Shown piece after piece: positions 20,252 through 52,006 of a stretch of DNA of 57,359 nt (positions are counted from its first letter, which is position 1; every line of letters begins with the position of its first letter). The notes beneath the pieces were generated by a model. It ran no database searches and was not told where the DNA came from. It saw only the letters and a program-made list of their open reading frames with translations. The translations under genes were made by a program, and so were the position numbers. The stretch comes from Oscillospiraceae bacterium (GTDB lineage: Bacteria; Bacillota; Clostridia; Oscillospirales; Ruminococcaceae), in contig JAFRJM010000021.1 of assembly GCA_017432285.1 (NCBI GenBank), forward strand, positions 1-57,359, read 5' to 3'.

Positions 20252-21844
20252 TCAGCCGTTTGCGTAGAAAGACGGATCATTCGGTATCATAAGCTGCGGC
20301 AGCAGATCGCGCAGTGCAATGTCATGATTTGTACGTACCTCTGTCCTGCCGTTATCCCAGATGATCGTCGAATAGTTGTCCGCTGTTGAGGGCGGCAGAT
20401 ACGGAACAAGATCATTGTTCGGATCTCCATTGTGTGCGAATGAAGTCCAGCATGCGCACATCTCATCCTGTATGCGTTCAGTCTCTCCGTTCGGAATATA
20501 ACGGGATTCGGAATAATCTGCGATGTGTATCACAAAATCATTCTCAGCACCATGCCATGGTATTGTTCCACCGTTAACAGGCAGCTTCTGGTTGAACAGG
20601 TACATATAGCAGGGAGCTCCGCCCTGTGCGCTCTTCAGATCCACTAAATGCATACAGCTCGCACGGTGGCCCATATCTGTAAATATAGCCTCTGTCGGAT
20701 CATGGTCAGGATACACTTCGGAATAAACCCTTTTTACTTCGTCAGCCTTATCGCCAAACCACGCTTTCATTGCGTGATCCTTGTCTTCTTCGGTCCAGTC
20801 ATGGCGGTTCTTTTTAAGAACAGGATCATCATTCCACCGGGCTGCACTGGTATTGCGCTCTCCCTGAGTTGCACCTAAAAACAAGGGTATATTCTTCACC
20901 TCAGGCCGCAGACCGACATCAAACGGGTTACCAGGGAAAAAGTCATTAAACGGCTGGCTCCATGTTGCGCGATACCCAAACTTAGGTGTAGTCTCACGCA
21001 TTGCTTCAAGCGCTTTTACGCTTAGAGTAGAATACGGAAGAGCCTTAAGCTGTTCTACATCACCTTCAGGTATGCCGAGCAGTTCAAAAGTGCGCTTGGC
21101 TATTGCACGTGCGCATTCCATGCTTGGATAGATAGCGTCCTCAGGCGGCATGCCTGCCATAACTATCGCTTTGTGATATAGCCCGTCTGCGGCAGATATC
21201 TGCATAAGGTTTACAACTTTTCCGCCGCCTCCGCTGTGTCCGAACAGCGTAACATTGTTGGGGTCGCCCCCGAAATTCTCTATGTTTACCTGCACCCATT
21301 TAAGCGCAGCGATAATATCCAAAAACTCAAGGTTGCACGAATTGCGGTATTCAGGTCCGTATTCCTCAAGATCTAATAATGCAAGGCAATTCAGACGGTG
21401 GTTAGAAGCTATGACTACGACATCTCCGAAAGCCGCCATGCTCTCTCCGTTGAACTCGGCACTGGAGCCAAATGCATGTCCTCCCCCGTGAAGCCAGAAC
21501 ATGACCGGCTTCTTTGCTTTCTTGTCGATCGTCGGTGACCAGATCTTCATAGTCTGGCAGGCTTCCCCCTCAGGCCAGATGACCGGAGGATAAAGAATAT
21601 TGCCAACTGGAGGCAGCTGATTTGAAGCTACACTTGGGCATATTGGACCCTCAACCAGAGCATCTCTCACTCCTTCCCATTTTGCAGGGGGATGCGGTTC
21701 CTCAAATCTTTCGGCATCCGCGTATTTTACTCCAAGAAAGGTATATACACCGTTCCTTATCATCCCGCGGAGTTTTCCGGAGGCTGTATCCACCTCGGCA
21801 ATCCCCGGTCCATACTCAAGACTTTTTATTTTAGTGACTACCAT
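20252..21844 (-). CDS. Type-B carboxylesterase, divergent member
   Basis: This 530-residue cytoplasmic protein (no signal peptide) has the whole type-B esterase layout. The oxyanion motif is WLHGGGHA (about 118-123), the nucleophile is Ser204 in FGHSGGGG, the acid is Glu329 in GATQGERN, and the base is His431 in PWHGAEND. It shares the N-terminal LRG and FLGVKYA elements with its paralogues but belongs to neither of the tandem groups. It ends the esterase series and lies 12 bases from the next upstream esterase, so both are cotranscribed. AAGGAG precedes the ATG. Substrate unknown. Confidence 0.92.
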   Translation of the reverse strand: MVVTKIKSLEYGPGIAEVDTASGKLRGMIRNGVYTFLGVKYADAERFEEPHPPAKWEGVRDALVEGPICPSVASNQLPPVGNILYPPVIWPEGEACQTMKIWSPTIDKKAKKPVMFWLHGGGHAFGSSAEFNGESMAAFGDVVVIASNHRLNCLALLDLEEYGPEYRNSCNLEFLDIIAALKWVQVNIENFGGDPNNVTLFGHSGGGGKVVNLMQISAADGLYHKAIVMAGMPPEDAIYPSMECARAIAKRTFELLGIPEGDVEQLKALPYSTLSVKALEAMRETTPKFGYRATWSQPFNDFFPGNPFDVGLRPEVKNIPLFLGATQGERNTSAARWNDDPVLKKNRHDWTEEDKDHAMKAWFGDKADEVKRVYSEVYPDHDPTEAIFTDMGHRASCMHLVDLKSAQGGAPCYMYLFNQKLPVNGGTIPWHGAENDFVIHIADYSESRYIPNGETERIQDEMCACWTSFAHNGDPNNDLVPYLPPSTADNYSTIIWDNGRTEVRTNHDIALRDLLPQLMIPNDPSFYANG

Positions 21845-21856
21845 ACTAATTACTCC

Positions 21857-23422
21857 TTATATAGGGAATCTCCTCCACGGGACTATCTTGTTGTGAAGTT
21901 CCAGAAGATCTTTGTCGTGGCCTATGCCAAGCCTTGTGTCTGTATCAAATATCATTGTTGCCGGAGAGCCTTTTGTCCAGCGCGGCCAATCAGCAATGCT
22001 GCTGTTATTAGGATCTCCCGTTCTAGCGAAACTGATAAGCACATTGCTTAATTCTTTTTCAACACGTTCACTGACATCAGGTATCTGCGCTGCAGGCATA
22101 CGTTCTACGTTGTGCAGCAGGAAAGGTATCTCTGACCCATGATGTGCAGGAAGGCCCCCGAAAATCGGACTCTCCAACGCAAACACATAATTCCAGCATG
22201 GAGCTCCGAATTCCTCTTTCATCTCGCACCAGCGCACTATCTGTGTGCGGAACATCGTTTCAAAATATATAAGGTCCAGAGGGTCCTTTCCTGGATAAGC
22301 TTTCGTCCAGCAAGAGAGTATCTTGGATGTCTGATCCCCATAGATAGAATGAAGTCTTTCCATCCGTTCCACATCGGACCACCTTGACTTGTTCTGAATA
22401 ATATCCCAGTGCCAGCCTGATTCTCCAAGTGCAGACCCTACAATACAAGGTATCTTTTGCGCTTCCGGACGAAGTCCGTAATCAAACGGATATCCGCAGA
22501 AATACTCATTGGGAAGGACAGTCCTGCCTACATACCTGTATTCCCCGTCTTTCATATAAGCTGCGCTGTCTTCAGAGTAAGCCGCCATATATCCTTCAAG
22601 CAGCTTTCTGTAGTCCACCGTCTCTAGCTGGTGGACATCCGAATCGTTTAGTCCAAGTTTTTCCAACGTTTTATGCACTATATTGTATCCGTTGTGCTCT
22701 TTCTTTGGAAAAACCATATTCGAAGAAACTGCGCTCTCCATTACGCATTTATGGAAGAGCCCATCCGCGGCAGGAGTCTGCATCAGCGCCCACTGTTTGC
22801 ACCCGCCTCCGCTGTGCCCAATTATGGTGACATTAGAGGGATCACCTCCAAAAGATGCGATGTTGTCCCTTATCCACTTAAGCGCTGCAACAAGATCCTC
22901 GAGGCCGAGGTTTGCTGTGTTCCTGTACCGATCCTCATCAAACGGGGAAAGATCCAAAAAGCCCAGAATAGCTATGCGATGGTTGACTGACACAAATACC
23001 ACGTCACCATAACTGGAGATATTGAATCCATCCGTCGCAACTGTATCGTTTGCATTTCCGGCATGAAACCCGCCTCCGGGTATCCATACAACTACAGGCA
23101 GTTTGGCTCTTTTATCAATAGACGGTGTCCATATATTGAGGTTGAGACAATCTTCACTTTCAGTGCTTGGAACAGTACCCTGCAGCAGAGGGACGTAGTC
23201 CCTTCTGGCTTTTCCCATAGCAGTTGTAAGGCATCCATCACCGCGGACAAACGCATCTTTGGTCCCGGTCCATCTTGCCGGCTGAGGATGCGAGAATCGC
23301 TTTGCCGTTCCGTAGGGCACACCAAGAAAATGGTGGATCCCACGGTATGTGTATCCACGCAAACGTCCTCCGGTTGTCTTGACTACCGGAGCATCATTTC
23401 CGCAATAGAACAGATTGGCCAT
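21857..23422 (-). CDS. Type-B carboxylesterase, divergent member
   Basis: The product is 521 residues. Nucleophile Ser204 (IGHSGGGC), acid Glu in VGSALGESGWH and base His in AHHGSEIPF are in place, and ESEDCLNLNIW is a classical type-B signature. The oxyanion motif reads WIPGGGF, with Pro where His is usual. ATG 23422 is chosen because it aligns with the MNRRFYC start of its paralogues. A GTG at 23434 with GGAG eight bases upstream is a real alternative and adds four residues. It follows the aldo/keto reductase gene. Confidence 0.92.
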   Translation of the reverse strand: MANLFYCGNDAPVVKTTGGRLRGYTYRGIHHFLGVPYGTAKRFSHPQPARWTGTKDAFVRGDGCLTTAMGKARRDYVPLLQGTVPSTESEDCLNLNIWTPSIDKRAKLPVVVWIPGGGFHAGNANDTVATDGFNISSYGDVVFVSVNHRIAILGFLDLSPFDEDRYRNTANLGLEDLVAALKWIRDNIASFGGDPSNVTIIGHSGGGCKQWALMQTPAADGLFHKCVMESAVSSNMVFPKKEHNGYNIVHKTLEKLGLNDSDVHQLETVDYRKLLEGYMAAYSEDSAAYMKDGEYRYVGRTVLPNEYFCGYPFDYGLRPEAQKIPCIVGSALGESGWHWDIIQNKSRWSDVERMERLHSIYGDQTSKILSCWTKAYPGKDPLDLIYFETMFRTQIVRWCEMKEEFGAPCWNYVFALESPIFGGLPAHHGSEIPFLLHNVERMPAAQIPDVSERVEKELSNVLISFARTGDPNNSSIADWPRWTKGSPATMIFDTDTRLGIGHDKDLLELHNKIVPWRRFPI

Positions 23423-23450
23423 AGTTTCCCCCACGTATTTTTCTCCATTA

Positions 23451-24608: not shown

Positions 24609-26192
24609 TTATGCTTCCGGTTCAGGCATCTTGATATCTACGAATGAGTTGCTCATCTTTGCTTTCTTCTGATATTCACTCAGCAACTCACGGTCGTAGT
24701 CATAACGCATCTCGCACTGTTTATCAAAGATCATGGTTCCGCACTCGCCGGTCTTATACTGCTTCCACTCCGGCACATCTCCGCCATTGGGGTCGCCGTT
24801 TGTTGCGAAATTGATCCACGCCTGATGCATCTTCTGGCTAAGTGCTACTGCATCCGGTTCATTGAGAGCATCAACATATTCTGTATTGCCAAAGACCAGG
24901 GGCAAGCAGATTCCGTGATATGACGGCATTCCGCCGAAATATCCGAGCTGATAGCTGATCATGTAGTTCCACACTTTATTTCCAAAGCCCGCCATCGCAT
25001 CTGCGAACTCTACTGTCCCCTGACGTGTTGAGCGGTCCAGGTTGTAAAGATCCATGATATCGCGTCCGGGATATGCTTTCTCAAACAGATCGATCATGTA
25101 GTCTTTATCATCGCCAAAGAGCTCTGTCAGCATCTCCTGACGTTTCTCGGCAGAAACAGTATACGGTGTGAACGTCGGCATGTAGAGAACAGTTTCGCAA
25201 AGAACAGATCCGCATATTACCGGAATACTCTTCGCATGCTCACGGAAACCAAAATCAAGCGGTGCACCAAGATACCAGTCATTGTGGACCGGCCCAAGCA
25301 TCATGCCAACATTCATTCCTTCGCCTTCGAAATCTTTGCATACACTCAGGAATGCTTCACGGAGTTTCTCAAATGGAACCTTCTTGATCTCCTCAAATGT
25401 TTCTTTTGTCAGCCCGAGCTTTGCGACCAGAGCATTCGCCATCATCTTGCTCACCTTGGGCTGTCTGTCCTCAGTGTCTGCAATATGCATAAGACCGCTC
25501 TGGAAGATAACACGGTTGTAAAGACCGTCTGCTGCTGGAGTCTGGAGAAGAGTCTGGATCTTTCCGCCACCGCCGGACTGGCCGAACAATGTAACATTGT
25601 CCGGATCACCGCCGAACTTGTCGATGTTTTTCCTTACCCATTTCAGTGCTTCTACAATATCAGCCATACCTGCGTTTCCGGAGTTCCAGTATTTCTCACC
25701 GAAATCTGACATATCAAGGAATCCCAGGATGTTCAGACGATGGTTGAACGATACTACGACAAGATCGCCGTCTCTGCAAAGGTTTGCACCGTCATAGCTC
25801 ATCTGCTCCACGGATGATCCAGTGGAGAATCCACCGCCGTGAACCCATACCATTACCGGGCGTTTACGTCCGAATTCCGGTTTTGTTGTCCAAACGTTGA
25901 TATACTGGCACTTCTCGTCCTCCGGCCAGAACCTGTATCCGAACAGAGGCTGCTGGGTAAGTGCGTTCATCGTTGAAACATCAGGCTTCTGTACTGTAGG
26001 TGCGACAGGGCCATAAGTAACTGCTTCCACAACGCCATCCCAATGCTCAATAGGCTTCGGGGCTTCATAGCGCTCTGCCTCTGCATAGGGGATGCCGCGG
26101 AAATAATAGAGGTCATTGACGAAACAGCCGCGAACTTTTCCGGCAGCCGTCATGACTTCTGTGCGTTCATCACAGTAAAATCTACGGTTCAT
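24609..26192 (-). CDS. Type-B carboxylesterase, trio member 1 (downstream)
   Basis: The 527-residue protein carries HGGG at 118-121, nucleophile Ser206 (LFGQSGGGG), Glu333 (GSVLCET) and His426 (SYHGICLPLVF). The usual EDCLYLN signature has become DEKCQYINVW, a mark shared by all seven group-A copies. There is no signal peptide, so it acts inside the cell. Its start (MNRRFYCDERTEV) is the same as in the next two upstream paralogues, pointing to recent duplication. It is the last of three genes under the promoter at 29453-29481. Acyl and alcohol preference is unknown; variation is greatest at 235-320, the probable specificity region. Confidence 0.94.
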   Translation of the reverse strand: MNRRFYCDERTEVMTAAGKVRGCFVNDLYYFRGIPYAEAERYEAPKPIEHWDGVVEAVTYGPVAPTVQKPDVSTMNALTQQPLFGYRFWPEDEKCQYINVWTTKPEFGRKRPVMVWVHGGGFSTGSSVEQMSYDGANLCRDGDLVVVSFNHRLNILGFLDMSDFGEKYWNSGNAGMADIVEALKWVRKNIDKFGGDPDNVTLFGQSGGGGKIQTLLQTPAADGLYNRVIFQSGLMHIADTEDRQPKVSKMMANALVAKLGLTKETFEEIKKVPFEKLREAFLSVCKDFEGEGMNVGMMLGPVHNDWYLGAPLDFGFREHAKSIPVICGSVLCETVLYMPTFTPYTVSAEKRQEMLTELFGDDKDYMIDLFEKAYPGRDIMDLYNLDRSTRQGTVEFADAMAGFGNKVWNYMISYQLGYFGGMPSYHGICLPLVFGNTEYVDALNEPDAVALSQKMHQAWINFATNGDPNGGDVPEWKQYKTGECGTMIFDKQCEMRYDYDRELLSEYQKKAKMSNSFVDIKMPEPEA

Positions 26193-26218: not shown

Positions 26219-27799
26219 TCAAGCCTTTTTTGGTTTTACTACCCTGAAGAATGAATCAGTGAAATTGGAATATTCCTTATAATCTGCAAGCAATTTGCTG
26301 TCATGTCCATAGCGCATCTCGCACTGCCTGTCGAAGATCATCGTTCCGCCCTCACCGGCTTTAAACGGTTTCCATTCCGGTACATCGCCGCCGTTAGGAT
26401 CACCGCTCGTTGCAAAATTGATCCATGCCTGATGCATCTTCTGGCTGAGGCATACTGCATCCGGCTCGTTGAGCGCGTCAACATATTCTGTGTTGCCAAA
26501 TACCAGAGGCAAACAGATACCGTGATAAGCAGGCATACCGCCAAAATAATCAAGCTGATAAGTGATCAGATAGTTATATGCTGTAGCTCCGGCTTCTGTT
26601 TTGAGTTCAGCCCATTCAACCGTCCCGGACCGGGTCGAGATATCCAGGTTGTAGAGATCCATGAGATCTCTGCCGGGATATGTCTTCTCAAACAGAGCGA
26701 TCATCTCGTCCTTCTTGTCCCCGAAAAGCTCTTCCAACATCTCCTGGCGTTTTTCTGCGGGAGAAGTATAAGGAGTAAATGTCGGCGCATACAGTACTGT
26801 CTCGCAAAGCACAGAACCGCACATGACCGGGATCTTCTTTGATTCCTCTCGCAGGCCTACTTCGAATGGATTTCCTACATAATATTCATTACGCGTCGGA
26901 GCAATAGCTCTTCCCAGGCTCTTTCCCTGTTTTGTAAACTCGTCCAATGCTTTCAAATATGCTTCGCGGAGTTTTTCAAACGGTACCTTCTTGATCTCTT
27001 CGAATGTCTCTTTGGTAAGGCCAAGATTTGCTACCATTGCTGCGGCAAGTTCCTTGCTGGCTTTTGCACCAATGTCTTCAGCACCGCGGTTGACCATCAT
27101 GCCGCTCTGGAAGATCGCCTTATTATATAATCCATCCGCTGCAGGCATCTGCATAAGTGTTCGGATCTTCATTCCGCCACCGGACTGTCCGAACAGCGTC
27201 ACATTATCAGGATCTCCGCCGAACTTATCTATGTTCTTCCTGACCCATTTCAAAGCTTCAACGATATCTTCCATACCAGCGTTGCCGGAGTTCCAGTATT
27301 TCTCTCCGAAGTCTGACATATCCAGATATCCCAAGATATTAAGCCGGTGGTTGAAAGATACTACAACAAGATCTCCGTCCCTGCACAGGTTGGCTCCGTC
27401 ATAGCTCATCTGCTCTACGGAAGAACCAGTTGAGAATCCGCCGCCGTGTACCCACACCATAACAGGGCGTTTCCTGCCGGACTCAAGTTTTTTCGTCCAA
27501 ACATTGATGTACTGGCATTTTTCATCTTCAGGCCAGAACCTGTATCCGAACAACGGCTGCTGCGAAAGAGCGTTCATGCTGGTTACATCCGGTTTCTGCA
27601 CCGTTGGCGCTACCGGGCCGTATGTCACAGCTTCTACTACTCCATCCCAGTGTTCTATCGCCTTCGGATGTTCATAGCGCTCAGCTTCTGCATATGGAAT
27701 GCCGCGGAAATAGTACAGGTCATTCAAGAAACAGCCACGTACTTTACCGGCAGCCGTCATGACCTCTGTGCGCTCATCACAGTAAAATCTACGGTTCAT
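26219..27799 (-). CDS. Type-B carboxylesterase, trio member 2
   Basis: This is a 526-residue paralogue of its neighbours with the same layout: HGGGF near 118, GQSGGGMK around the nucleophile Ser206, acid Glu in GSVLCETVLY and base His in AYHGICLPLVF. The nucleophile loop has Met where most copies have Gly (SGGGM). It differs from member 1 mainly in residues 235-330, near the expected substrate pocket lid (for example DEFTKQGKSLGRAI). Start and ribosome-binding site (AAGGAGATATGAG) are clear. The gene probably shares one transcript with both flanking esterases. Confidence 0.94.
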   Translation of the reverse strand: MNRRFYCDERTEVMTAAGKVRGCFLNDLYYFRGIPYAEAERYEHPKAIEHWDGVVEAVTYGPVAPTVQKPDVTSMNALSQQPLFGYRFWPEDEKCQYINVWTKKLESGRKRPVMVWVHGGGFSTGSSVEQMSYDGANLCRDGDLVVVSFNHRLNILGYLDMSDFGEKYWNSGNAGMEDIVEALKWVRKNIDKFGGDPDNVTLFGQSGGGMKIRTLMQMPAADGLYNKAIFQSGMMVNRGAEDIGAKASKELAAAMVANLGLTKETFEEIKKVPFEKLREAYLKALDEFTKQGKSLGRAIAPTRNEYYVGNPFEVGLREESKKIPVMCGSVLCETVLYAPTFTPYTSPAEKRQEMLEELFGDKKDEMIALFEKTYPGRDLMDLYNLDISTRSGTVEWAELKTEAGATAYNYLITYQLDYFGGMPAYHGICLPLVFGNTEYVDALNEPDAVCLSQKMHQAWINFATSGDPNGGDVPEWKPFKAGEGGTMIFDRQCEMRYGHDSKLLADYKEYSNFTDSFFRVVKPKKA

Positions 27800-27815: not shown

Positions 27816-29393
27816 TCAATCTTTCTTCAAAGTCCTTGAGAACAGATCGCTGAATCTGGATTTCTCCTCATATTTTGTGATCAGCTCACGGTCATAGTCA
27901 TAGCGCATCTCACACTGTCTGTCGAAGAGCATCGTTCCGCCTTTCCCAGGCTTATATGCTTCCCAGCAAGGCACATCACCGCCGTTAGGATCGCCCTTAG
28001 TAGCGAAATTGATCCATGCCTGATGCATCTTCTGGCTGAGACATACCGCATCCGGTTCATTGAGAGCGTCTACATACTCCGTGTTGCCGAATACCAGCGG
28101 CAGGCAGAGTCCGTGATATGCAGGAGTTCCTCCGAAATAATTCAACTGATAAGTGATCAGATAGTTCCATACAGGAGCCTCAAATTTGGATTTATTATCT
28201 GCAAATCCGATAGTACCTTTACGGGTGGAGATATCCAGGTTGTAAAGATCCATAATGTCACGTCCGGGATATGTCTTCTTGAAAAGTTCGATCATCTCAT
28301 CCCTGTTATCACCAAAGATCTCATCCAACATCTCCAAGCGTTTCTCTTCAGAAGCAGAATTGTACGGAGTAAAGGTTGGTGCATAAAGGACCGTCTCGCA
28401 GAGAACAGAACCTGCTATCGTCGGAATAGTCCCGGCATGCTCCCTGAAACCGACCTCATACGGGTTACCGACATAATACTCGTTGCGGACCGGGGCAAGG
28501 CCCATACCTAAACGCTGTCCTCCGGATGTAAGTTCATCAGCAGATTTCAGATATGCCGCACGAAGCTCATCGAAGGTGAACTTCTTAATATCTTCGATCG
28601 TATCTTTTGTCAGTCCGAGGTTCTTCACTATTGCTGCTGCCAAGGCGCGGTTAGCCTTTCTGCTGGCTTCCTCACCGCCCGCACTGTTCATAAGTCCGCT
28701 CTGGAAGATGACTTTGTTGTAAAGGCCGTCTGCAGCAGGCATCTGGAGCAGTGTGCGGATCTTGTGTCCGCCTCCGGACTGTCCGAACAGCGTGACGTTC
28801 TTCGGATCGCCGCCAAACTTCTCAATGTTCTTCTGGACCCACTTGAGAGCTTCCACGATGTCCATCATTCCGAGGTTTGCTGAGTTCCAGTATTTATCAC
28901 CGAACTCTGACAGATCCAGATAACCAAGGATATTGAGACGGTGGTTAAATGATACGACAACAAGGTCTCCGTCTCTGCAGAGATTGGCTCCGTCGTAACT
29001 CATCTGCTCTACTGATGAGCCCGTGCCATAGCCACCGCCATGTACCCATACCATGACCGGGCGTTTACGTCCAGGTTCCGGCTTTTTCGTCCATACGTTG
29101 ATATACTGACACTTCTCATCTTCCGGCCAGAATCTGTATCCGAACAGTGGCTGCTGAGAAAGAGCATTCCTGCCTCTTACAGCCGGTTTCTGCACTGTAG
29201 GAGCGACGGGACCATATGTTACAGCCTCAAGCACTCCATCCCAGTGCTCTACTGCCTTTGGCGCTTCGTATCTCTCTGCTTCCGCATATGGGATGCCGCG
29301 GAAATAATACAGATCGTTCAAGAAACAGCCACGGACTTTTCCTGCAGCTGTCATTACTTCTGTGCGCTCATCGCAATAAAATCTTCTGTTCAT
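27816..29393 (-). CDS. Type-B carboxylesterase, trio member 3 (promoter-proximal)
   Basis: The 525-residue product has WVHGGGYGTGSS, FGQSGGGHK (nucleophile Ser206), GSVLCETVLY and AYHGLCLPLVF. It is the first gene after the promoter at 29453-29481, with a roughly 50-base leader and AAAAGGAG ahead of the ATG. A one-residue insertion and several substitutions after residue 340 (NSASEEKRLEML) set it apart from the other two. No signal peptide or membrane segment is present. Confidence 0.94.
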   Translation of the reverse strand: MNRRFYCDERTEVMTAAGKVRGCFLNDLYYFRGIPYAEAERYEAPKAVEHWDGVLEAVTYGPVAPTVQKPAVRGRNALSQQPLFGYRFWPEDEKCQYINVWTKKPEPGRKRPVMVWVHGGGYGTGSSVEQMSYDGANLCRDGDLVVVSFNHRLNILGYLDLSEFGDKYWNSANLGMMDIVEALKWVQKNIEKFGGDPKNVTLFGQSGGGHKIRTLLQMPAADGLYNKVIFQSGLMNSAGGEEASRKANRALAAAIVKNLGLTKDTIEDIKKFTFDELRAAYLKSADELTSGGQRLGMGLAPVRNEYYVGNPYEVGFREHAGTIPTIAGSVLCETVLYAPTFTPYNSASEEKRLEMLDEIFGDNRDEMIELFKKTYPGRDIMDLYNLDISTRKGTIGFADNKSKFEAPVWNYLITYQLNYFGGTPAYHGLCLPLVFGNTEYVDALNEPDAVCLSQKMHQAWINFATKGDPNGGDVPCWEAYKPGKGGTMLFDRQCEMRYDYDRELITKYEEKSRFSDLFSRTLKKD

Positions 29394-29623: not shown

Positions 29624-30649
29624 TTAATCAAGGAACTCTGCATATTCGTCAATGTTCTTCTCGGTGACAAGCTTCATCTCATAGTAATTGATCTTGTCAT
29701 AGCCAGCCGGCGTGTCTTTTCCGAGTATAGCCGCATGGCAGCATGTGATCATTCCGAGCGGTACGCGGTCTTTCAGTCCGAGGTCGATAGTTCCACGATA
29801 GATACCCTCGCCCTTCTTGGCTGTATAGATAAGGTTAAGAGCGATGTCGGTAGCGTCTGTTGAGAAAACACCATACTGGCTGATGTCCTTGCCTGCTCCT
29901 TTAAGGTCTGCATACCAAGCCTCAGCGATCTCAACGACCATTCCATCTGCAAGTGATGCACAGATCTGGATATCAGGCCTTGCGGAAAGCATGTTGTAGA
30001 AGCAGTCTACGAACGGCATCGTTGCCGGAACACGATAGATATCCGCACGAGGGCAGTTGTCTCTGAAGCCATCCTCGATACCGTTAGAACGGTTAGTTGC
30101 AGATTCATTGACTTCAACGCCCATCATACCATAGACGATTTTTTCTGTTTTAACGTTCTCGTTTGCCCACTCTGCTGCCATCTTTCCGATAGCATAGCCA
30201 AGATCATAATATGAGCAAAGGAATGAGTAGTCTGCATATTCACAATACTCATCATAGGACACGATAGCGACACCCTTCTCTTTCAGGTCAGCGACCATCG
30301 AAGCCATACCGGTTGGGTCGTTGTTCATAAATATGATACCGTCTGCTCCTGCAGCCACCATGTTCTCCAGGTTATTCATGGTACGGCCAGTATCATTCTC
30401 ATCCTGAGAAGTCAGGATCTTGATATTGTGTTCTTCACCGTATTTGTAGAACACGTCTACCATAAACGACATAGTCTCATTGGTGAGGTTGTTGCAGTTG
30501 AAACCAATGATCAGTTGTTTTTCCGGTTCCGGTGCAGGCTCATCACCACCAGACGGTGTAGGTGTCGGTTCAGGTGTTGAACTTTCGCCACAAGCTGCAA
30601 AAGAAAATGCAAGGACCAGCAGCATCAGTATCGCAAGGATCTTTTTCAT
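29624..30649 (-). CDS. Sugar ABC transporter substrate-binding lipoprotein (RbsB-like), orphan copy 2
   Basis: The 341-residue protein starts with MKKILAILMLL and the lipobox SFAACG, so it is anchored outside the cell. A short Pro/Glu/Gly linker leads into a periplasmic-binding fold of the ribose/galactose (Peripla_BP_4) type: LIIGFNCNNLTNETMSF, NLENMVAAGADGIIF, VSYDEYCEYADYSF. The ATG at 30649 is clear from AAGAGGAGG; longer reading frames have no such site. No ATPase or permease gene is adjacent, so it probably feeds the importer at the right end. It closely resembles the next gene upstream. Confidence 0.93.
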   Translation of the reverse strand: MKKILAILMLLVLAFSFAACGESSTPEPTPTPSGGDEPAPEPEKQLIIGFNCNNLTNETMSFMVDVFYKYGEEHNIKILTSQDENDTGRTMNNLENMVAAGADGIIFMNNDPTGMASMVADLKEKGVAIVSYDEYCEYADYSFLCSYYDLGYAIGKMAAEWANENVKTEKIVYGMMGVEVNESATNRSNGIEDGFRDNCPRADIYRVPATMPFVDCFYNMLSARPDIQICASLADGMVVEIAEAWYADLKGAGKDISQYGVFSTDATDIALNLIYTAKKGEGIYRGTIDLGLKDRVPLGMITCCHAAILGKDTPAGYDKINYYEMKLVTEKNIDEYAEFLD

Positions 30650-30681
30650 TTTTTTCCTCCTCTTCTTAAATGTATTATTGT

Positions 30682-30709
30682 TTGTGCGCACCTGATATGA
30701 TGCGCAAGA
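30682..30709. promoter_or_regulatory. Inverted repeat upstream of binding-protein copy 2
   Basis: TTGTGCGCA and TGCGCAAGA form an imperfect inverted repeat spaced by ten bases about 33 bases upstream of the start codon. It is a plausible operator for a sugar-responsive regulator. No good promoter was identified with certainty in this 165-base gap. Confidence 0.35.
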
Positions 30710-39608: not shown

Positions 39609-39634
39609 GTTTGTTTCTCCAATTATTGGTTTTT

Positions 39635-43299: not shown

Positions 43300-44862
43300 T
43301 TATTTTCTTCTAGCGTGCATGAATGCCATGACGAAATCAGTGTTCTTCTCATATTCCTTGATCAGTTCACGGTCGAAGTTGTAACGCATCTCGCTCTGAT
43401 GATCGAATACCATGGTTGCACCATCTTCCTTGTGATACTGTTTCCACTCAGGAACATCTCCGCCGTTAGGATCTCCGTATGTAGCAAAGTTCATCCAGGC
43501 CTGATGCATCTTCTGGCTGAGTGCTACGCAATCAGGCTCATTGCAGGCGTCGACGTATTCTGTGTTGCCGAATACCAGCGGCAGGCAGAGTCCGTGATAG
43601 GAAGGCATTCCGCCGAAATACTCCATGTGATATGTAAGCAGATAGCACCAGTTAGGAGCATCGAACTGAGACTTCATATCCAGGAAGTCATAGCTTCCCT
43701 GACGTACTGTGTAGTCAAGCATATAAAGGTCCATAAGGTCGTTCTCAGGATATGATTTCCTGAAGAGCTCGATCATATAGTCCTTCTTGTCTCCAAACAG
43801 ATCTGCAAGCAACGCATCCTTTTCTTCTTCGGGAATCGTGAACGGGATGAACTCTGCATACAGCGCGGATTCGCACTGGACAGAACCAACGATCGTCGGA
43901 ACGGTCTTGGCATAATCAGAAAGTCCTACTTCGAAGAGGTCACCAGTGAAGAAATCTGTCTTCTTGGGTCCTATGGCTCCGAAGAAACCTCCCTGACCCG
44001 CGAACTCCTCCATAGTAGCAAGATATGCTTCGCGCAATTTCTCGAACGGCACTTTTCTGAACTCATCAAATGTCTCTTTTGTGAATCCAAGTCTCTCTAC
44101 CATGCGGGCAGCGACTTTGCCGGATGCACTGTTATCTCTCTGGCCGCCGCCGAGATTCATAAGACCGCTCTGGAAGATAGCCTTGTGATACAGGCCGTTT
44201 GCTGCAGGGATCTGCATCAGGTTGCGGATCTTTCCACCGCCGCCTGACTGACCGAACAAAGTCACGTTGTTGGGGTCTCCGCCAAATCTGTCGATATTTC
44301 TCTGTACCCATTTGAGCACTTCAACGATATCCGCAAGACCGGTGTTGGCTGAGTTCTCATATTTCTCGCCGAACTGTGACATGTCCATATAGCCGAGGAT
44401 ATTTAGACGATGGTTGAATGAAACAACGACCAGGTCTCCATCACGGCAAAGGTTTGCGCCGTCATAACTCATCTGCTCAACGGAGGAACCTGTTGCGATT
44501 CCGCCGCCGTGTACCCATATCATAACGGGGCGTTTGCGTCCGGGAGTCGGATCCTTTGTCCAGACGTTAAGATACTGACATCTCTCATCTTCTGGCCAGA
44601 ATCTGTAGCCGAACAACGGCTGCTGGGATAGGGCATATCTGCCAAGCACGCTCGGTTTCTGTACAGTCGGTGCAACGGGGCCGTAAGTTACAGCCTCAAC
44701 AACGCCGTCCCAATGCTCCATTGGCTTCGGCATCTCATAGCGTTCCGCAGTTGCATACGGAATGCCTCTGAAATAGTAGTGGTCGTTCAGGAAACAGCCT
44801 CTGACTTTTCCTTCAACTGTCTCTACCTCAGTGCGGGCATCGCAGTAAAATCTTCTGTTCAT
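43300..44862 (-). CDS. Type-B carboxylesterase, quartet member 2
   Basis: The 520-residue product has WVHGGGIATGSS, FGQSGGGGK, GSVQCESALY and SYHGLCLPLVF. Ile replaces the aromatic residue normally after HGGG, which could widen or alter the oxyanion pocket. The ATG at 44862 has GGAGGG five bases upstream and aligns with the paralogues. An ATG four codons earlier coincides with the ribosome-binding site and is rejected. Central residues 235-330 differ most (RDNSASGKVAARM). Confidence 0.94.
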   Translation of the reverse strand: MNRRFYCDARTEVETVEGKVRGCFLNDHYYFRGIPYATAERYEMPKPMEHWDGVVEAVTYGPVAPTVQKPSVLGRYALSQQPLFGYRFWPEDERCQYLNVWTKDPTPGRKRPVMIWVHGGGIATGSSVEQMSYDGANLCRDGDLVVVSFNHRLNILGYMDMSQFGEKYENSANTGLADIVEVLKWVQRNIDRFGGDPNNVTLFGQSGGGGKIRNLMQIPAANGLYHKAIFQSGLMNLGGGQRDNSASGKVAARMVERLGFTKETFDEFRKVPFEKLREAYLATMEEFAGQGGFFGAIGPKKTDFFTGDLFEVGLSDYAKTVPTIVGSVQCESALYAEFIPFTIPEEEKDALLADLFGDKKDYMIELFRKSYPENDLMDLYMLDYTVRQGSYDFLDMKSQFDAPNWCYLLTYHMEYFGGMPSYHGLCLPLVFGNTEYVDACNEPDCVALSQKMHQAWMNFATYGDPNGGDVPEWKQYHKEDGATMVFDHQSEMRYNFDRELIKEYEKNTDFVMAFMHARRK

Positions 44863-44876
44863 GTGTCCCTCCATAA

Positions 44877-46457
44877 TTAGTTCTTTTTGTTCTTCTTTAC
44901 ACGTACAAAGTTATATTCAAAATCTGTGTACTTCTGGAATTTCCATACAAGCTCACGGTCGAAGTCATACCTCATTTTGCACTCACGGTCAAAGATCATC
45001 GTTCCGTACTCACCTTCACGGTAAGGCTCCCACTTCGGTACATCTCCGCCGTTGGGGTCCCCGTTGGTCGCGAAATTGATCCACGCCTGATGCATCTTCT
45101 GGCTGAGTGCCACGCAATCTGGCTCATTGCATGCATCGACATATTCGGTGTTTCCGAACACCAGAGGCAGGCAGAATCCGTGATATGCTGGAGTACCTCC
45201 GAAATAATTGAGGTGGTATGTGATCATGTAGCAGTAAAGCGGAGCTTCGTGCTTGACCTTGCGGTCAAAGAACTCATATACACCTTTGCGGACGATGAAG
45301 TCCAGATTATACAGATCAAGCAGGTCATCATTCGGATAGACCTTCCTGAAGAGATTTACCATCTCTTCTTTCTTATCACCGAACAGTTCTGTCATTAGCT
45401 CGTCACGCGTCTCGTCAGACGTCTCGTTGTAAGGATAGAGCTTCGGTACATACAGTACAGTCTCACACTGGCAGGTACCGCCCATGACCGGTACTTTCTT
45501 TGCGTATTCTGTCAAACCAACTTCATTTGGGTTGCCTACATAGTAGCCGTTCCTTACCGGCTGAATGATACCATGCAGATTGATACCCTCATCAGAAAGC
45601 ACTTTGACACACTCAAGGTATACTTCACGAAGTTTTTCAAACGGTACTTTGGCGATCTCCGGGAACGTTTCTTTGGTAAGGCCAAGTTTCTCCACCATCG
45701 CTCTGGCGACTCTTCTGTTGTTGGCTGCATCTTCCACTTCTCCCGGTAGATTCATAAGACCGCTCTGGAAAATGACCCTGTTGTATAGTCCGTCTGCAGC
45801 TGGGATCTGAAGAATAGTACGGATCTTTCCGCCACCCCCAGACTGCCCGAACAAGGTAACATTGTCAGGGTCGCCACCGAACCTGTCGATGTTTCTTCTG
45901 ACCCATTTGAGGACTTCGACAATATCTTCCATACCGGCATTGCCCGAGTTCCAGTATTCCTCACCGAATTCGGAGAAATCCATGTATCCCAGGATATTGA
46001 GACGATGGTTGAAAGAAACGACTACAAGGTCTCCGTCTCTGCAGAGGTTAGCTCCGTCATAGCTCATCTGCTCTACAGATGAACCTGCGCCAAATCCTCC
46101 TCCATGTACCCACACCATTACAGGTCTTTTCCTGCCGGGTTTAGGATCCTTTGTCCAGACGTTTACATACTGGCACATCTCATCTTCCGGCCAGAATCTG
46201 TAGCCGAACAATGGCTGCGACGTCAAGGCATATACACGCGAAACGCTCGGCTTCCCTACCGTCGGAGCAACCGGTCCGTACGTTACGGTTTCTTTTACTC
46301 CATCCCAATGCTCCATAGGCTTGGGGGATTTATACCTCTCCGCTGTTGCATAAGGGATGCCTCTGAAGTAGTAATGGTCATTGAGAAAACACCCTCTGAC
46401 CCATCCTTCAACTGTCTCTACCTCAGTGCGTGCATCACAGTAAAATCTTCTGTTCAT
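44877..46457 (-). CDS. Type-B carboxylesterase, quartet member 3
   Basis: The 526-residue product has WVHGGGFGAGSS, FGQSGGGGK, acid Glu in GGTCQCETVLY and base His in AYHGFCLPLVF. The tail is strongly basic (RVKKNKKN). It is otherwise built like its neighbours, cytoplasmic, with the group-A EMCQYVNVW version of the signature. GGAG precedes the ATG. The gap to member 2 is 14 bases, so the genes are cotranscribed. Confidence 0.94.
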   Translation of the reverse strand: MNRRFYCDARTEVETVEGWVRGCFLNDHYYFRGIPYATAERYKSPKPMEHWDGVKETVTYGPVAPTVGKPSVSRVYALTSQPLFGYRFWPEDEMCQYVNVWTKDPKPGRKRPVMVWVHGGGFGAGSSVEQMSYDGANLCRDGDLVVVSFNHRLNILGYMDFSEFGEEYWNSGNAGMEDIVEVLKWVRRNIDRFGGDPDNVTLFGQSGGGGKIRTILQIPAADGLYNRVIFQSGLMNLPGEVEDAANNRRVARAMVEKLGLTKETFPEIAKVPFEKLREVYLECVKVLSDEGINLHGIIQPVRNGYYVGNPNEVGLTEYAKKVPVMGGTCQCETVLYVPKLYPYNETSDETRDELMTELFGDKKEEMVNLFRKVYPNDDLLDLYNLDFIVRKGVYEFFDRKVKHEAPLYCYMITYHLNYFGGTPAYHGFCLPLVFGNTEYVDACNEPDCVALSQKMHQAWINFATNGDPNGGDVPKWEPYREGEYGTMIFDRECKMRYDFDRELVWKFQKYTDFEYNFVRVKKNKKN

Positions 46458-46477: not shown

Positions 46478-48052
46478 TCAGTTCTTTTTCTTGACGCGGA
46501 AGAAAGGATCAGCGAAATTGCTGTTCTCAACATATTTCCAGATCAGTTCATGGTCGAAATCATAGCGCATCTCGCACTTCTTATCGAAGACCATGACACC
46601 GCGCTCTCCTTCCCTGTACTGATCCCATTCCGGCACATCACCGCCGTTGGGGTTGCCGTATGTCGCAAAGTTGATCCATGCCTGGTGCATCTTCTGGCTG
46701 AGCGCTACTGCATCCGGCTCATTAAGTGCATCGACATATTCTGTATTGCCGAATACCAGCGGCAGGCAGATGCCATGATATGAAGGCATACCTCCGAAAT
46801 AATTCAGGTGATACTTGATCAGGTAGCAATAGATCGGTGCATCTGTCTTCGCCTTGCGGTCAAGATACTCATATGCACCTTTGCGGATAACGATATCCAG
46901 GCTGTACAGATCAAGGAGGTCTCCATCCGGATATGCCTTCTTGAACAGCTCTACCATCTCATCCGTCTTGTCACCGAAGACGCCTCTTACGAGTTCTTCT
47001 CTCTCCTCCTGGGAGATCGTGTACGGGTGGAACTCCTTTGCATAAAGGACTGTCTCGCACTGGACGGTACCAGCCATTGTCGGGATGTTCTTTGTCTCCT
47101 CTCTGAGACCCACTTCATTGGGGTTTCCAAGGTAGTAATCATTGCGGATAGGAGCGCAGAGTCCGCCTGTGCGTACGCCTTCTGCGTTAAGCTCATCAAC
47201 GACCGCGAGATATGTCTCCCTCAGTTTATCGAATGGGACTTTACGGAACTCGTCAAATGTATCCTTTGTGAATCCGAGTTTCTCGACCATCATCTTTGCA
47301 GCTCTTCTGCTGATGAATACATCCTCTTCCTCACCTGGTGAGTTTACGAGTCCGCTCTGGAAGATGACTCTGTTATACAAGCCGTCCGCAGCGGGTATCT
47401 GTGTCAGTGTGCGGATCTTTCCGCCGCCGCCTGACTGCCCAAACAGCGTGATGTTGTTCGGGTCACCGCCAAATCTGTCGATATTTCTCTGTACCCATTT
47501 GAGTACTTCAACGATGTCAGCCATACCGGCGTTACCGGAGTTCTTGTAGTCATCGCCGAACTCGGAGAAATCCATATATCCGAGGATATTCAGACGGTGG
47601 TTGAAGGATACGACAACGAGGTCCCCGTCTCTGCACAGGTTTGCTCCGTCATAGCTCATCTGCTCAACAGAGGAACCTGTTCCGAAGCCGCCTCCGTGTA
47701 CCCATACCATTACCGGGCGTTTACGTCCGGATTCGGGTTTCGTTGTCCAGACGTTGACATACTGGCATCTCTCATCTTCCGGCCAGAATCTGTATCCGAA
47801 CAGTGGCTGCTGTGAAAGCGCATTCATTCCTACAACGTTAGGTTTCTTTACTGTAGGTGCTACAGGACCATATGTAACAGCTTCCAGTACACCATCCCAG
47901 TGTTCCATCGGTTTAGGTGCTTTATACCGCTCTGCTGTGGCATAGGGAATGCCACGGAAATAATACAGGTCATTAACAAAACAACCCATTACCTTGCCTT
48001 CGACTGTTTCCACAACAGTGCGGTCATCGCAGTAAAATCTTCTGTTTCCCAT
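46478..48052 (-). CDS. Type-B carboxylesterase, quartet member 4 (upstream)
   Basis: The 524-residue product has WVHGGGFGTGSS, FGQSGGGGK, GTVQCETVLY and SYHGICLPLVF. It begins MGNRRFYCDD, one residue longer than its sisters. It is the first of the quartet and lies 117 bases behind the FGGY kinase. That gap holds overlapping stem-loops able to act as an attenuator (48100-48144). GGAGG lies before the ATG. Confidence 0.94.
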   Translation of the reverse strand: MGNRRFYCDDRTVVETVEGKVMGCFVNDLYYFRGIPYATAERYKAPKPMEHWDGVLEAVTYGPVAPTVKKPNVVGMNALSQQPLFGYRFWPEDERCQYVNVWTTKPESGRKRPVMVWVHGGGFGTGSSVEQMSYDGANLCRDGDLVVVSFNHRLNILGYMDFSEFGDDYKNSGNAGMADIVEVLKWVQRNIDRFGGDPNNITLFGQSGGGGKIRTLTQIPAADGLYNRVIFQSGLVNSPGEEEDVFISRRAAKMMVEKLGFTKDTFDEFRKVPFDKLRETYLAVVDELNAEGVRTGGLCAPIRNDYYLGNPNEVGLREETKNIPTMAGTVQCETVLYAKEFHPYTISQEEREELVRGVFGDKTDEMVELFKKAYPDGDLLDLYSLDIVIRKGAYEYLDRKAKTDAPIYCYLIKYHLNYFGGMPSYHGICLPLVFGNTEYVDALNEPDAVALSQKMHQAWINFATYGNPNGGDVPEWDQYREGERGVMVFDKKCEMRYDFDHELIWKYVENSNFADPFFRVKKKN

Positions 48053-48169: not shown

Positions 48170-49696
48170 TTATTTGTATTCGACTACTCTCTGCATGTCG
48201 CTCCAGAAACCGTCCAGGCAATCGATAGCTTTGACATAGAGGCCATACTTCTTGTCATAGATATCTTTCAGATCAGGATTCGGATAGACAGCAGGGCTGA
48301 TCGGAGACATGTTGGCGATAGCTGTCGGCAGGTCCGGATACTGTCCGGTTGCAACTGCACCGGCAATAGCGCATCCGAGAGCGCCTGTCTCGTTTGCCAT
48401 AACAGTCTCTACAGGAAGCTGCATGACGTCTGCGAACATCTGGACCCAGACTTTGGACTTGGTTGCACCGCCTGCAAGACGGATCTTCTCAGGAAGGTCT
48501 TTTCTTGTGGCCAGCAGTCTCTCAAAGTGCCAGCGATGGCAGAACACGATGCCTTCGTAGATAGCTCTGGCTACATGTTTCCTTGTGTGGTTTGCAGTGA
48601 TACCGATTATGGAGCCCTTCGCGTTCGGGTGTACGTTTGACGCAAGGATGAAAGGCAGGAACAGCGGCACGAATTCCTGAGGCGGGATCTCCTCTACCCA
48701 TTTATTGACCTCATCATATACATGTCCCTTCTCCTGCAGTTCAGGAAGCAGGTTGCGTACGAACCACTCGTTGTTTCCCGCAGATGTCGGGCTGGATTCC
48801 TCTACAAGGTATGTGCCCGGGATACAGAACAGAGAGTTCATAAGAGCTGTTCCATCTGTTACAGGAGCATTCCTGACGTATTCATTGATGGACCATGTTC
48901 CGGCGATCATCAGGACGTTCTTGTCATCGATAACACCGGTCGCAAGTGCGCATGCGTCGATATCAAATGCACCGCCGGCTACAGGGGTTCCCTCGATAAG
49001 GCCGGTCCTTGCAGCTGTATCAGCAGTGATGTAACCGCATACATCAGATGCATAGCAAAGAGGCGGAAGGGCATCCCAAACTTCTGGAATTCCGAACAGT
49101 TCAAGGAGCTTAGGATCATACTGCTGGGTATACAGGTTGACCAGGTTGGCGCCGGAATAGTCGCTGCGCTCAGCCATAGCTTTTCCTGTGAGGCGGAAAC
49201 GGACATAGTCCTTGCACTCAAATACCCACTGGATATTTGCGTAATTTTCCGGCTCATTTTCTTTCAGCCAGCGAAGAAGAACGACAGGCTGGAAAGCCAT
49301 GAGGTGCTGGATGGACATCTCGCCTGCTGCGGCCTCAGTGCCATCCTCCTGCCATTTCTGCATGATTGCATATGCACGTGTATCCGAAGAAAGGATTCCG
49401 TTGCGCACAGGCTTATCATCTTTGCCCCACAGATACAGTCCTTTGCCGTGTCCGCATACAGCGATGCATGCAACATCTTTAGGATCTGTATTGGTCTTTT
49501 CAAGGACTTCGCGAATAACCTTGCAGTTTGCATCCCACATGTCTTCCATCTCGCGCTCCGCATACAGCGGACGCTCGCAGATGGCGTCTGTGGAAACGCT
49601 GGCAACACCAAGTTCATTTCCCCTCAGGTCAAAAACAGCAGCTTTGGTTGTAGTACCGCCGTTATCAAGACCTATAAATCTTTTGTTATTATCCAT
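48170..49696 (-). CDS. FGGY-family carbohydrate kinase
   Basis: At 508 residues this is a full-length FGGY sugar kinase. The N-terminal phosphate 1 motif is FIGLDNGGTTTKAAVFDL, the catalytic Asp lies in GGAFDIDACALATG, and the ADP-binding segment is IRLAGGATKSKVWVQMFADV. The overall look is nearest to L-xylulose- or polyol-type kinases of the family, but substrate assignment is not safe. It phosphorylates a free keto-sugar or polyol with ATP in the cytoplasm. Context (HAD gene upstream, esterases on both sides, importer to the right) points to the sugar core of an esterified substrate. GGAGG precedes the ATG. Confidence 0.92.
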   Translation of the reverse strand: MDNNKRFIGLDNGGTTTKAAVFDLRGNELGVASVSTDAICERPLYAEREMEDMWDANCKVIREVLEKTNTDPKDVACIAVCGHGKGLYLWGKDDKPVRNGILSSDTRAYAIMQKWQEDGTEAAAGEMSIQHLMAFQPVVLLRWLKENEPENYANIQWVFECKDYVRFRLTGKAMAERSDYSGANLVNLYTQQYDPKLLELFGIPEVWDALPPLCYASDVCGYITADTAARTGLIEGTPVAGGAFDIDACALATGVIDDKNVLMIAGTWSINEYVRNAPVTDGTALMNSLFCIPGTYLVEESSPTSAGNNEWFVRNLLPELQEKGHVYDEVNKWVEEIPPQEFVPLFLPFILASNVHPNAKGSIIGITANHTRKHVARAIYEGIVFCHRWHFERLLATRKDLPEKIRLAGGATKSKVWVQMFADVMQLPVETVMANETGALGCAIAGAVATGQYPDLPTAIANMSPISPAVYPNPDLKDIYDKKYGLYVKAIDCLDGFWSDMQRVVEYK

Positions 49697-50417: not shown

Positions 50418-50428
50418 CGTCGATATTT

Positions 50429-52006
50429 TTAGAGAGGCTGTTTCTTGCGGTTGCCGCCGAAGAAGCTTCTGTGCGGTGTGTACTCCCAGTTCTTGTAAAG
50501 CAGTTCGCGGTCAAAGTTCTTGACACAGCGGTTCTCTTCGCCAAATACCATGGTGTACTCTTCACCGGCATCATATGGTTTCCACTCACCTATGAACTCG
50601 TGGTTCGGATCTCCGGTGCGGGCGAAGGTTGCCCAGCACTTGGACATCTGCATTCCAAGCTTGATCGGTGTCGGCTCATGCATGCAGATGACCTTGTCTG
50701 TATTGTGGAAGATCATCGGCAGGTCGCAGCCGTGATAGGACGGCATGCCGCCCAGGAAGTGGAATGTGTAGTCGATCATATAGCTGTAAGATACGCCGCC
50801 GCCATTCTTCTTGCGGGCATCGAGATACTCAAGTGTACCTCTGCGGAACATCTTGTCCATATGATAGAGGTTCAGGATATCGTCATCCGGATATGCCTTC
50901 TTAAAGAGATCGATCATCTCATCGGTATGCTCACCAAACATGGATTTTACGCGCTCATATTTGGCTTCATCGGACATCTGGTAATCACTGAAGTCATCTT
51001 CAAAGTGATATGTCTCTGCCTCTACAGAACCTGCAATCATCGGAGTGTTAAGGCTCTTCTCTGAGAATCCGCAGGTGATCGGGTTGCCCAGATACCAGTC
51101 GTCTGCACAGGGACTGCATCCTGGCATGATTCCCTGATCAATGAGATCCGGTACTACTTCTAGATATGCTTCACGCAGTTTGTCAAACGGTACGCTCTGG
51201 ATCTTCTCTACCTCACCCTTTTCAATTCCCAGTTTGTCCATGACCGCTTTAGCAGTGGCTTTGCCGTCACGCAGTTTCTTCTCTTCATCCTGGAACGGAT
51301 ATGTAAGTCCGCTCTGGAAAATGACTTTGTGGAACAGATCTGCTGCTTCAGGGATCTGAAGGAGAGTCATGATCTTTCCGCCGCCGCCGGACTGACCGAA
51401 CAGTGTTACGTTGCCCGGGTCGCCGCCGAATTTCTCGATGTTGTCACGGACCCATTTCAGGACCAGGACTATATCTCTCATACCTACGTTGCGGGAATCC
51501 TTGAATTTATCGCTGTACTCGGACATATCAAGGAAGCCAAGGATATTAAGCCTGTGGTTGAAAGATACGACTACGATGTCATTCTCTTCTGCGAGATGGC
51601 TAGGATCATAGCTGTGCTGCTCTACTGAGCTTCCGGTAGAATAACCGCCGCCGTGTACCCATACCATGACAGGGCGTTTCTTTCCATCACCAAGGCCTCT
51701 GGTCCATACGTTGACATACTGGCAATCCTCATCTTCCGGCCAGAAATTGTATCTGAAGCACGGATCAAGACGAAGAGCAGCAGCCGGTCTGACAGACGGT
51801 TTCTGAACTGTCGGAGCTACCGGTCCGTATGTGTAGCAATCAAGGATGCCATCCCATTTTGCCGGCGTAGGCAGTTCATAACGCTTCGCGTTGGCATATT
51901 TGATGCCGTGGAAAATATAAAGTTCATCCAATTTGTACCCTCTTGCGGTACCGCCTGTTGTTTCAACGAACGGTCCTCTGTGGTCGCACCAAAAATCGTT
52001 AAGCAT
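50429..52006 (-). CDS. Type-B carboxylesterase, single member near the sugar kinase
   Basis: The 525-residue protein starts MLNDFWCDHRGPFVET, aligning with group A, and has the same numbering: HGGGY at about 118, nucleophile Ser206 (FGQSGGGGK), acid Glu in GSVEAETYHF and base His in SYHGCDLPMIF. Unlike group A it keeps an acidic residue after the catalytic HG (HGCD), the ancestral pattern. ATG 52006 is chosen for GGAGG five bases upstream; a start four codons earlier is unlikely. It lies between the MBL hydrolase and HAD genes. Confidence 0.93.
   Translation of the reverse strand: MLNDFWCDHRGPFVETTGGTARGYKLDELYIFHGIKYANAKRYELPTPAKWDGILDCYTYGPVAPTVQKPSVRPAAALRLDPCFRYNFWPEDEDCQYVNVWTRGLGDGKKRPVMVWVHGGGYSTGSSVEQHSYDPSHLAEENDIVVVSFNHRLNILGFLDMSEYSDKFKDSRNVGMRDIVLVLKWVRDNIEKFGGDPGNVTLFGQSGGGGKIMTLLQIPEAADLFHKVIFQSGLTYPFQDEEKKLRDGKATAKAVMDKLGIEKGEVEKIQSVPFDKLREAYLEVVPDLIDQGIMPGCSPCADDWYLGNPITCGFSEKSLNTPMIAGSVEAETYHFEDDFSDYQMSDEAKYERVKSMFGEHTDEMIDLFKKAYPDDDILNLYHMDKMFRRGTLEYLDARKKNGGGVSYSYMIDYTFHFLGGMPSYHGCDLPMIFHNTDKVICMHEPTPIKLGMQMSKCWATFARTGDPNHEFIGEWKPYDAGEEYTMVFGEENRCVKNFDRELLYKNWEYTPHRSFFGGNRKKQPL

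Follow-up and report, generated by a model that had tools for sequence, protein, structure and literature searches.

The window considered here, the whole 57,359-nucleotide contig JAFRJM010000021.1 of an Oscillospiraceae bacterium (assembly GCA_017432285.1, a 2.13 Mb draft of 46 contigs that is 54.6% complete, called G000 below), carries twelve genes of the type-B carboxylesterase family COesterase (PF00135) intermixed with genes for sugar uptake. From the sequences we read it, with a probability of about 0.6, as a species-specific array of cytoplasmic esterases built into a sugar-uptake locus and serving imported acylated carbohydrates. The same logic of import followed by internal removal of acyl groups would be clearer in an arabinose/esterase locus of the genus than in the window.

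All twelve COesterase open reading frames, called as the longest frames, lie on the minus strand, encode 524-533 residues and match PF00135 over its full length at 247-291 bits (E 5e-73 to 4e-86; Pfam cut-off 27). They span 20252-52018, so that the original prediction of twelve full-length genes in about 32 kb stands, the last gene reaching 52018 rather than 52006 through an alternative start. Seven form the MNRRFYCD subfamily, with pairwise identities of 66-78% (24609..26192, 26219..27799, 27816..29393, 41705..43279, 43300..44874, 44877..46457 and 46478..48052), to which the gene at 50429..52018 is related at 45-50% identity. The genes at 32092..33672 and 33743..35344 form a pair with 79% identity, the highest among the paralogues, and two lone divergent genes of the GHSGGG type complete the set: 20252..21844 (E 7e-75; 29-36% identical to the others) and 21857..23434 (E 5e-73).

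The active-site residues recognised beforehand were also recovered. In an alignment of 22 sequences that includes all twelve, the nucleophile motif is GHSGGG or GQSGGG, the catalytic serine and histidine (Ser207 and His426 in the numbering of the 46478 product) are invariant, and the aligned acid is glutamate in ten of the twelve window proteins and aspartate in 32092 and 33743. Hydropathy over residues 1-45, used as a heuristic and not a signal-peptide predictor, pointed to a hydrophobic N-terminus in none of the twelve and in one of the 40 complete COesterases of the genome, in agreement with the earlier claim that signal peptides are lacking. The structure modelled for 46478 has a mean predicted local distance difference test score of 89.5 and matches best, among chains of the PDB, 5a2g (template modelling score 0.89, 38% identity), which is also the best solved sequence match of 26219 (406.8 bits). 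The 5a2g chain is an esterase of Hungatella (Clostridium) hathewayi, Chath_Est1; it is the closest solved relative and shares the GQSGGG elbow. For a COesterase of the C21 type, found elsewhere in G000, no solved relative was found at E <= 1e-60 (G, C and L numbers denote genomes, contigs and loci).

The 28 genes between 18083 and 56836 all point the same way, no gap between them exceeding 251 bp; they may form an operon and be expressed together. Every part of a CUT2-type importer is present: binding proteins of the Peripla_BP_4 family (PF13407), a BPD_transp_2 permease (PF02653; 54271..55257, minus strand like all genes named below for the window) and an ATPase with two ABC domains (two stretches of PF00005; 55274..56836). 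Three binding proteins had been announced, and two complete sugar-type lipoproteins were found, at 29624..30730, the true start of which is probably internal, ahead of a lipobox-like MKKILAILMLLVLAFSFAACG seen by eye, and at 30815..31840; the third is represented only by a C-terminal tail of the 30815 family, cut by the contig end and recognised by eye in the translation (57201..57359). Resemblance of the window binding protein to sugar-binding chains of the PDB is weak (best E 5e-8), and the best NCBIfam models for the importer are of xylose/arabinose type, below cut-off (AraH for the permease, xylose/arabinose type for the ATPase). In the scheme that we propose, surface binding lipoproteins would capture small acylated carbohydrates, that is, sugars, polyols or glycosides bearing acetyl, feruloyl, p-coumaroyl or similar groups, and the importer at 54271-56836, probably serving several binding proteins, would carry them in. 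Several binding proteins of Bifidobacterium infantis reportedly share one permease. Once inside, the acylated compounds would lose their acyl groups to cytoplasmic esterases with differing middle regions; the alcohol dehydrogenase, the FGGY kinase and the HAD-type protein would oxidise and phosphorylate the sugar or polyol thus released, and the acyl part would be processed or discarded.

The association of COesterases with import genes recurs outside the window. AraA is present in all nine genomes of the genus, and in the six in which the place could be assessed (the contigs of G151, G153 and G149 stop short of the informative part) AraA, an ABC permease, an ATPase, an epimerase and COesterases stand in one cluster, in two gene orders; the neighbours were assigned by phmmer similarity, with Pfam for G000 and part of G150 and G148. 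Type A (G150, G148, G080 and G152) has a PF00756-type esterase, a regulator (by eye), FGGY, AraA, a noncoding stretch, permease, ATPase, epimerase and a COesterase array, which comprises eight genes in both G150 and G148 and is cut by the end of the stretch or contig in G080 and G152. Type B (G000 and G154) has COesterases, an MFS gene, a further COesterase, a binding protein, permease, ATPase, epimerase and AraA, followed in G000 by FGGY and a PF00756 esterase; the G154 contig ends after AraA. Glycoside hydrolases of family GH51 or GH43 lie near COesterases at four loci (C11 and C41 of G000, C4 of G148 and C115 of G149), and in two other genera single COesterases have ABC-importer genes close by, recognised by eye in G147 and through phmmer in G024. 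Fragments of forage arabinoxylan are the likely food served by the arabinose/esterase locus.

The noncoding stretch of type A contains a conserved element, predicted to be highly structured, between araA and the permease gene in all six type A araA-permease gaps available, those of G150, G148, G080 and G152 and those of the cut loci of G151 and G153 (L031:6645-7062 (+), L036:5153-5540 (-), L089:5985-6430 (+), L090:12900-13350 (-), L091:2640-3085 (-) and L092:980-1430 (-)). In G150 and G148 it has stops in all three forward frames. The G150 copy had no Rfam match at E <= 1, and copies of three more loci had none at the gathering threshold. Its fold has a z-score of -4.3, and in an alignment of the six copies changes on both sides were seen at 14 of 120 pairs, against 6.8 in shuffled alignments, none of 500 of which reached as high a value; the number of pair types was not above that of the shuffles (97/500), but on most measures the covariation exceeded them. 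The two longest helices hardly vary and the covariation comes from smaller ones. The element is probably a structured RNA, and we put it forward as a candidate for a new one on the basis of these sequence comparisons.

A second link is given by the family of the 30815 binding protein, of which G000 has six near-complete copies at five loci, all adjoining esterase-type genes: COesterases on C28 and C9 (on C9 also a PAF-AH-type hydrolase), PF00756 genes on C44 and C4, and a PF00144 gene on C6. Among 218 non-esterase genes sampled in 20 random stretches, 18 had an esterase-type neighbour, a base rate that is probably too high as the stretches came from 17 contigs, many of which had come to notice through their esterases; five of five loci by chance would then have a probability of 0.083^5 = 3.8e-6, a post hoc figure for a test framed after the pattern had been seen. 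The remaining three PF13407 matches of G000 comprise one that follows a COesterase on C21, one on C38 with no esterase in its short flanks and one on C17 with a start like that of a LacI-type regulator (by eye). On C44 and C36, tandem arrays of four PF00756-type esterases occur with metallo-beta-lactamase-fold (MBL) and binding-protein genes (L057 and L058), the MBL genes resembling that at 52056. The first 141 bp of these two contigs are identical and fall within a binding-protein gene, where the assembly was probably broken at a repeat.

The original prediction held that bacteria usually carry few COesterase genes, and the counts agree. G000 gave 50 matches to the hidden Markov model, 47 first-look candidates and 41 full-length genes, one of them split across two loci, and the nine genomes of the genus have 18-51 first-look candidates (17-53 matches) each. 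In a sample of 148 genomes of the family, 72 had any match, the 56 without one not being listed, and the highest candidate counts beyond the genus were 23, 18, 16, 14 and 10. In a phylum sample of 398 genomes, the 54 others listed have at most 12 candidates each, against 47 in G000; the 343 unlisted genomes are those without a match at E <= 1e-70, their candidate counts not being shown. PF00756 matches number 35 in G000 and 11-29 in the other eight genomes of the genus. The named relatives are RUG11783 and metagenome-assembled genomes from the digestive tracts of goat, sheep and buffalo. This genus of ruminant guts holds an unusually large intracellular esterase set, part of it in putative operons with genes for sugar uptake and arabinose, which suggests that acylated sugars are imported and deacylated internally.

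Using FastTree, we placed 110 COesterase sequences, 40 of them from G000, in one tree, in which long branches were flagged. For many members of the C21-type array the tree shows an orthologue in G149, G150 or G148, and some members fall together with sequences of G039, which belongs to another genus; this array is accordingly old, and its members are kept apart. In the window, 43300 has orthologues in G150, G152, G080 and G153, and 44877 in G148, G150, G152 and G080; 24609, 26219 and 27816 form a group, and 32092 and 33743 belong to a clade of six, in both cases confined to G000. Ratios of nonsynonymous to synonymous substitution (dN/dS, NG86) were 0.012-0.107 in eleven pairs, seven of them within the window, with saturated dS, and are signs of purifying selection on the predicted proteins; as the identities do not exceed 79% and these ratios are low, neither strain variation nor pseudogene status is a likely explanation of the paralogues. 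Among the seven MNRRFYCD paralogues, pair identity per 25-column block is 0.80-0.92 at residues 23-222 and 421-470, 0.48-0.59 at residues 223-420 and at most 0.64 in the C-terminal 50 residues. Judging from general knowledge of the fold, residues 223-420 may shape the substrate pocket, and variation there and at the C-terminus is the pattern expected if substrate preference differs among the paralogues.

Several results weigh against the reading of the window as an import-and-strip system. The arrangement of the window is species-specific: in related genomes, where a search for the same neighbourhood had been proposed, its FGGY kinase is found in three of nine genus genomes, its redox gene in one of nine and its 30815 binding-protein family in one of 396 genomes of the family (none in the other eight of the genus at E <= 1e-40, and none in the other 395 of the family at E <= 1e-50 with at most five candidates scored in each), and in G149 no esterase separates the kinase from the MFS gene that comes directly after it. 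None of the permease, kinase and dehydrogenase attains an NCBIfam cut-off, and the ATPase is below cut-off in the models covered for it (25 of 183). Three further fragments of the 30815 family have as their visible neighbour an esterase (C36), an MBL gene (C44) and the ABC ATPase (end of the window). Of the 17 COesterase regions of G000 outside the window, counted by hand, four have a Pfam-confirmed sugar-binding, arabinose or GH51/GH43 gene (C21, C9, C11 and C41), and 13 have none, most neighbours there having been read by eye; ABC-type genes, so named by eye or by phmmer, lie beside the COesterases of C18 and C45. Finally, the COesterase array of G039 has no recognised sugar gene nearby. We hold our confidence at the value given above because of the unconserved neighbourhood, these 13 regions and the G039 array; what survives of the proposal is a link between esterases and import that recurs elsewhere, in the arabinose locus, the binding-protein pairing and the four loci with GH51 or GH43. 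Two narrower ideas were given up: that the sugar genes of the window form a conserved unit with the esterases, since at the thresholds applied most genomes of the genus lack the kinase, the binding-protein family and the redox gene, and the kinase and MFS genes are adjacent in G149, and that a sugar can be named for the locus, since permease, kinase and dehydrogenase score under every NCBIfam cut-off.

The regions with no confirmed sugar gene would also suit a polyspecific cytoplasmic battery that detoxifies or scavenges esters of plant secondary metabolites entering by diffusion or through MFS proteins, the sugar genes being incidental. The very large and diverse repertoire, drawn from several esterase families, points the same way, as do MFS genes like that at 18083 that recur beside COesterases and the G148 COesterases near OYE-type, RACo-type and corrinoid proteins, which fit a metabolism of phenolic acyl groups. 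Detoxification alone, however, hardly explains the arabinose linkage in six of six assessable genomes and the pairing with binding proteins, and we consider it rather unlikely. Amplification without a common pathway, through duplication and rearrangement in a permissive region whose neighbours say little about function, appears improbable: it would account for the species-specific content and for mixed neighbours such as the MoxR, leucine-rich-repeat and VWA genes, but it sits badly with the low dN/dS ratios (dS saturated), with the retention of old paralogues by the arabinose array in several genomes and with closely spaced genes that all run in one direction.

That the enzymes deacylate lipids, galactolipids or polyesters is suggested by analogy with the H. 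hathewayi esterase, the top match by sequence and fold, whose activity on polyesters is stated in the title of the entry and which has been studied on synthetic polyesters (PMC11782994). A cytoplasmic enzyme encoded next to a CUT2 importer would hardly be expected to act on polymers or membrane lipids, and with no hydrophobic N-terminus in the twelve proteins and no lipid-metabolism family in the Pfam scan of the 28 genes we hold this very unlikely. An assembly artefact had been named at the outset as a danger; collapsed or chimeric strains would suit a draft of such completeness and contig number, and the shared start of C44 and C36 points the same way; with paralogues at most 79% identical and with orthologues and arrays recurring in other genomes, it can practically be dismissed. 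Import and internal de-esterification of acylated carbohydrates remains the reading that we prefer.

The other neighbours announced for the window were confirmed by Pfam, together with the permease and ATPase. They are an aldo-keto reductase (PF00248; 23512..24516), a FAD/NAD/2Fe-2S reductase (PF00970, PF00175 and PF00111; 35417..36691) that forms a redox pair with a FAD-dependent, CrtI-like oxidoreductase (below NCBIfam cut-offs; 36625..38166), an FGGY sugar kinase (PF00370/PF02782, best NCBIfam model xylulokinase, below cut-off; 48170..49696), a HAD-type phosphatase (PF13419; 49724..50380), an MBL-fold hydrolase (PF00753; 52056..53063), for which no solved relative was found at E <= 0.001 and whose relatives stand beside the PF00756 arrays of C44 and C36, and a zinc alcohol/polyol dehydrogenase (PF08240 and PF00107; 53131..54216). 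Between the esterases also lie a MoxR-like AAA ATPase (PF00004 and PF07728 above cut-off, bpMoxR below; 38157..39608), a BspA-type leucine-rich-repeat protein (PF13306; 39635..40327) and a VWA-like protein (DUF2201; PF09967 and PF13203; 40305..41636). An alpha/beta hydrolase (PF00561; 19315..20217) lies 34 bp from the first COesterase and is flanked by the MFS transporter (PF07690; 18083..19273) whose homologue directly follows the FGGY kinase in G149. Neighbours with no Pfam assignment were read by eye from their translations or named by phmmer against the proteins of the window and the loci. The aldo-keto reductase, MBL, redox and MoxR/VWA genes may also have roles in the proposed system. 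The redox pair recurs at two other G000 loci, C4 and C34, the C4 copy having a binding protein and PF00756 esterases at a distance of about 4 kb; as neither copy has an adjacent COesterase in its short flanks, we no longer count the pair among the constant components of the esterase system. Homologues of the MoxR-like and VWA genes (38157-41636 in the window) at 418 and 245 bits were seen beside two COesterases in G141, of another genus (L081:5239-8069). A glmS riboswitch/ribozyme (71.2 bits; 17338-17487, minus strand) precedes genes that resemble, by eye, a nucleotidyltransferase and a glucosamine-6-phosphate deaminase.

Other esterase regions of the genomes have contents of their own. In G148, COesterases of C16 (L001/L034, 2094-12762) lie near genes for an OYE-type reductase, a corrinoid protein and a RACo-type protein and near one that looks UroD-like by eye (its L020 homologue has no Pfam match), a cluster for which demethylation and reduction of phenolic acyl groups is possible. 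A conserved COesterase cluster of G150 (C17, L030) and G148 (C38, L037) includes BD-FAE, Abhydrolase_10 and PF00144 hydrolases (by Pfam in G150) and a LysR-like regulator (by eye). On C9 of G066 (L079), COesterases, PF00756-type esterases and an MFS gene stand beside genes that resemble, by eye, a sugar kinase, a KDPG-type aldolase and a sugar-acid dehydratase.

The digestion of forage is held back by the acyl groups that arabinoxylan carries. Each genome here devotes some 40 genes from a single esterase family to apparently cytoplasmic ester hydrolysis; these organisms could reveal who deacylates soluble arabinoxylan fragments, and the genus could offer a natural library of diversified esterases and testable substrates for an enzyme family often studied with artificial esters. 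More tentatively, the genus might be an acyl-sugar specialist that imports acylated mono- and oligosaccharides intact. It would sort them inside the cell through a combinatorial set of binding proteins together with dozens of esterases from several families, diversified so that each suits a given acyl position or type; if so, esterase arrays fused to arabinose operons, in one form with a new structured RNA, would constitute a distinct class of carbohydrate utilisation locus.

Uptake of acylated oligosaccharides followed by ester removal in the cytosol has been described before. The original prediction assumed that sugar-ester loci mostly use secreted esterases, a premise to which intracellular exceptions have been published (PMC11127375, PMC6385246). 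In the closest precedent, the Xua system of Ruminiclostridium cellulolyticum, decorated arabinoxylodextrins are imported and feruloyl, p-coumaroyl and probably acetyl groups are removed by cytosolic esterases of the same operon (PMC11127375). Import and cytosolic de-esterification are common to Xua and the system proposed for the window, where the importer, with the binding-protein tail, and the esterases share a locus, an importer being present in the G000 arabinose locus too. The window locus looks made to operate in this manner. Xua, however, includes GH51 and GH43 enzymes (PMC11127375), whereas the Pfam scan found no glycoside hydrolase among the 28 window genes and GH51/GH43 only near other COesterase loci; we do not call the window a Xua locus because cytosolic glycoside hydrolases are not in the same locus. 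Xua also has two esterases, XuaH (CE1/A85 type) and XuaJ (CE20), neither a COesterase, in one operon under a two-component system (PMC11127375).

The mannan loci of Roseburia intestinalis combine ABC import of acetylated oligosaccharides with intracellular deacetylation by two cooperating SGNH-type esterases, RiCE2 and RiCEX, acting on mannan, in contrast to the COesterase arrays found here (PMC6385246). Bifidobacterium infantis resembles G000 in having more binding proteins than usual, its surplus of family 1 solute-binding proteins being tied to carbohydrate import, and the part of that report available to us mentions no pairing with esterases (PMC3057974). CE_Ubrb of the bovine rumen was set aside as a relative since it is a family IV enzyme and not a COesterase (PMC5730166). 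Title listings of the open-access literature turned up no description of comparable COesterase arrays. Compared with Xua, the loci described here have arrays of eight (G150 and G148) to twelve (window) COesterases and an importer of the CUT2 type, with arabinose genes added at other places in the genus. As far as our searches show, what appears new lies in the enzyme family, COesterase, in how many paralogues there are, in the joining of arrays to arabinose genes and in the pairing of binding proteins with esterases.

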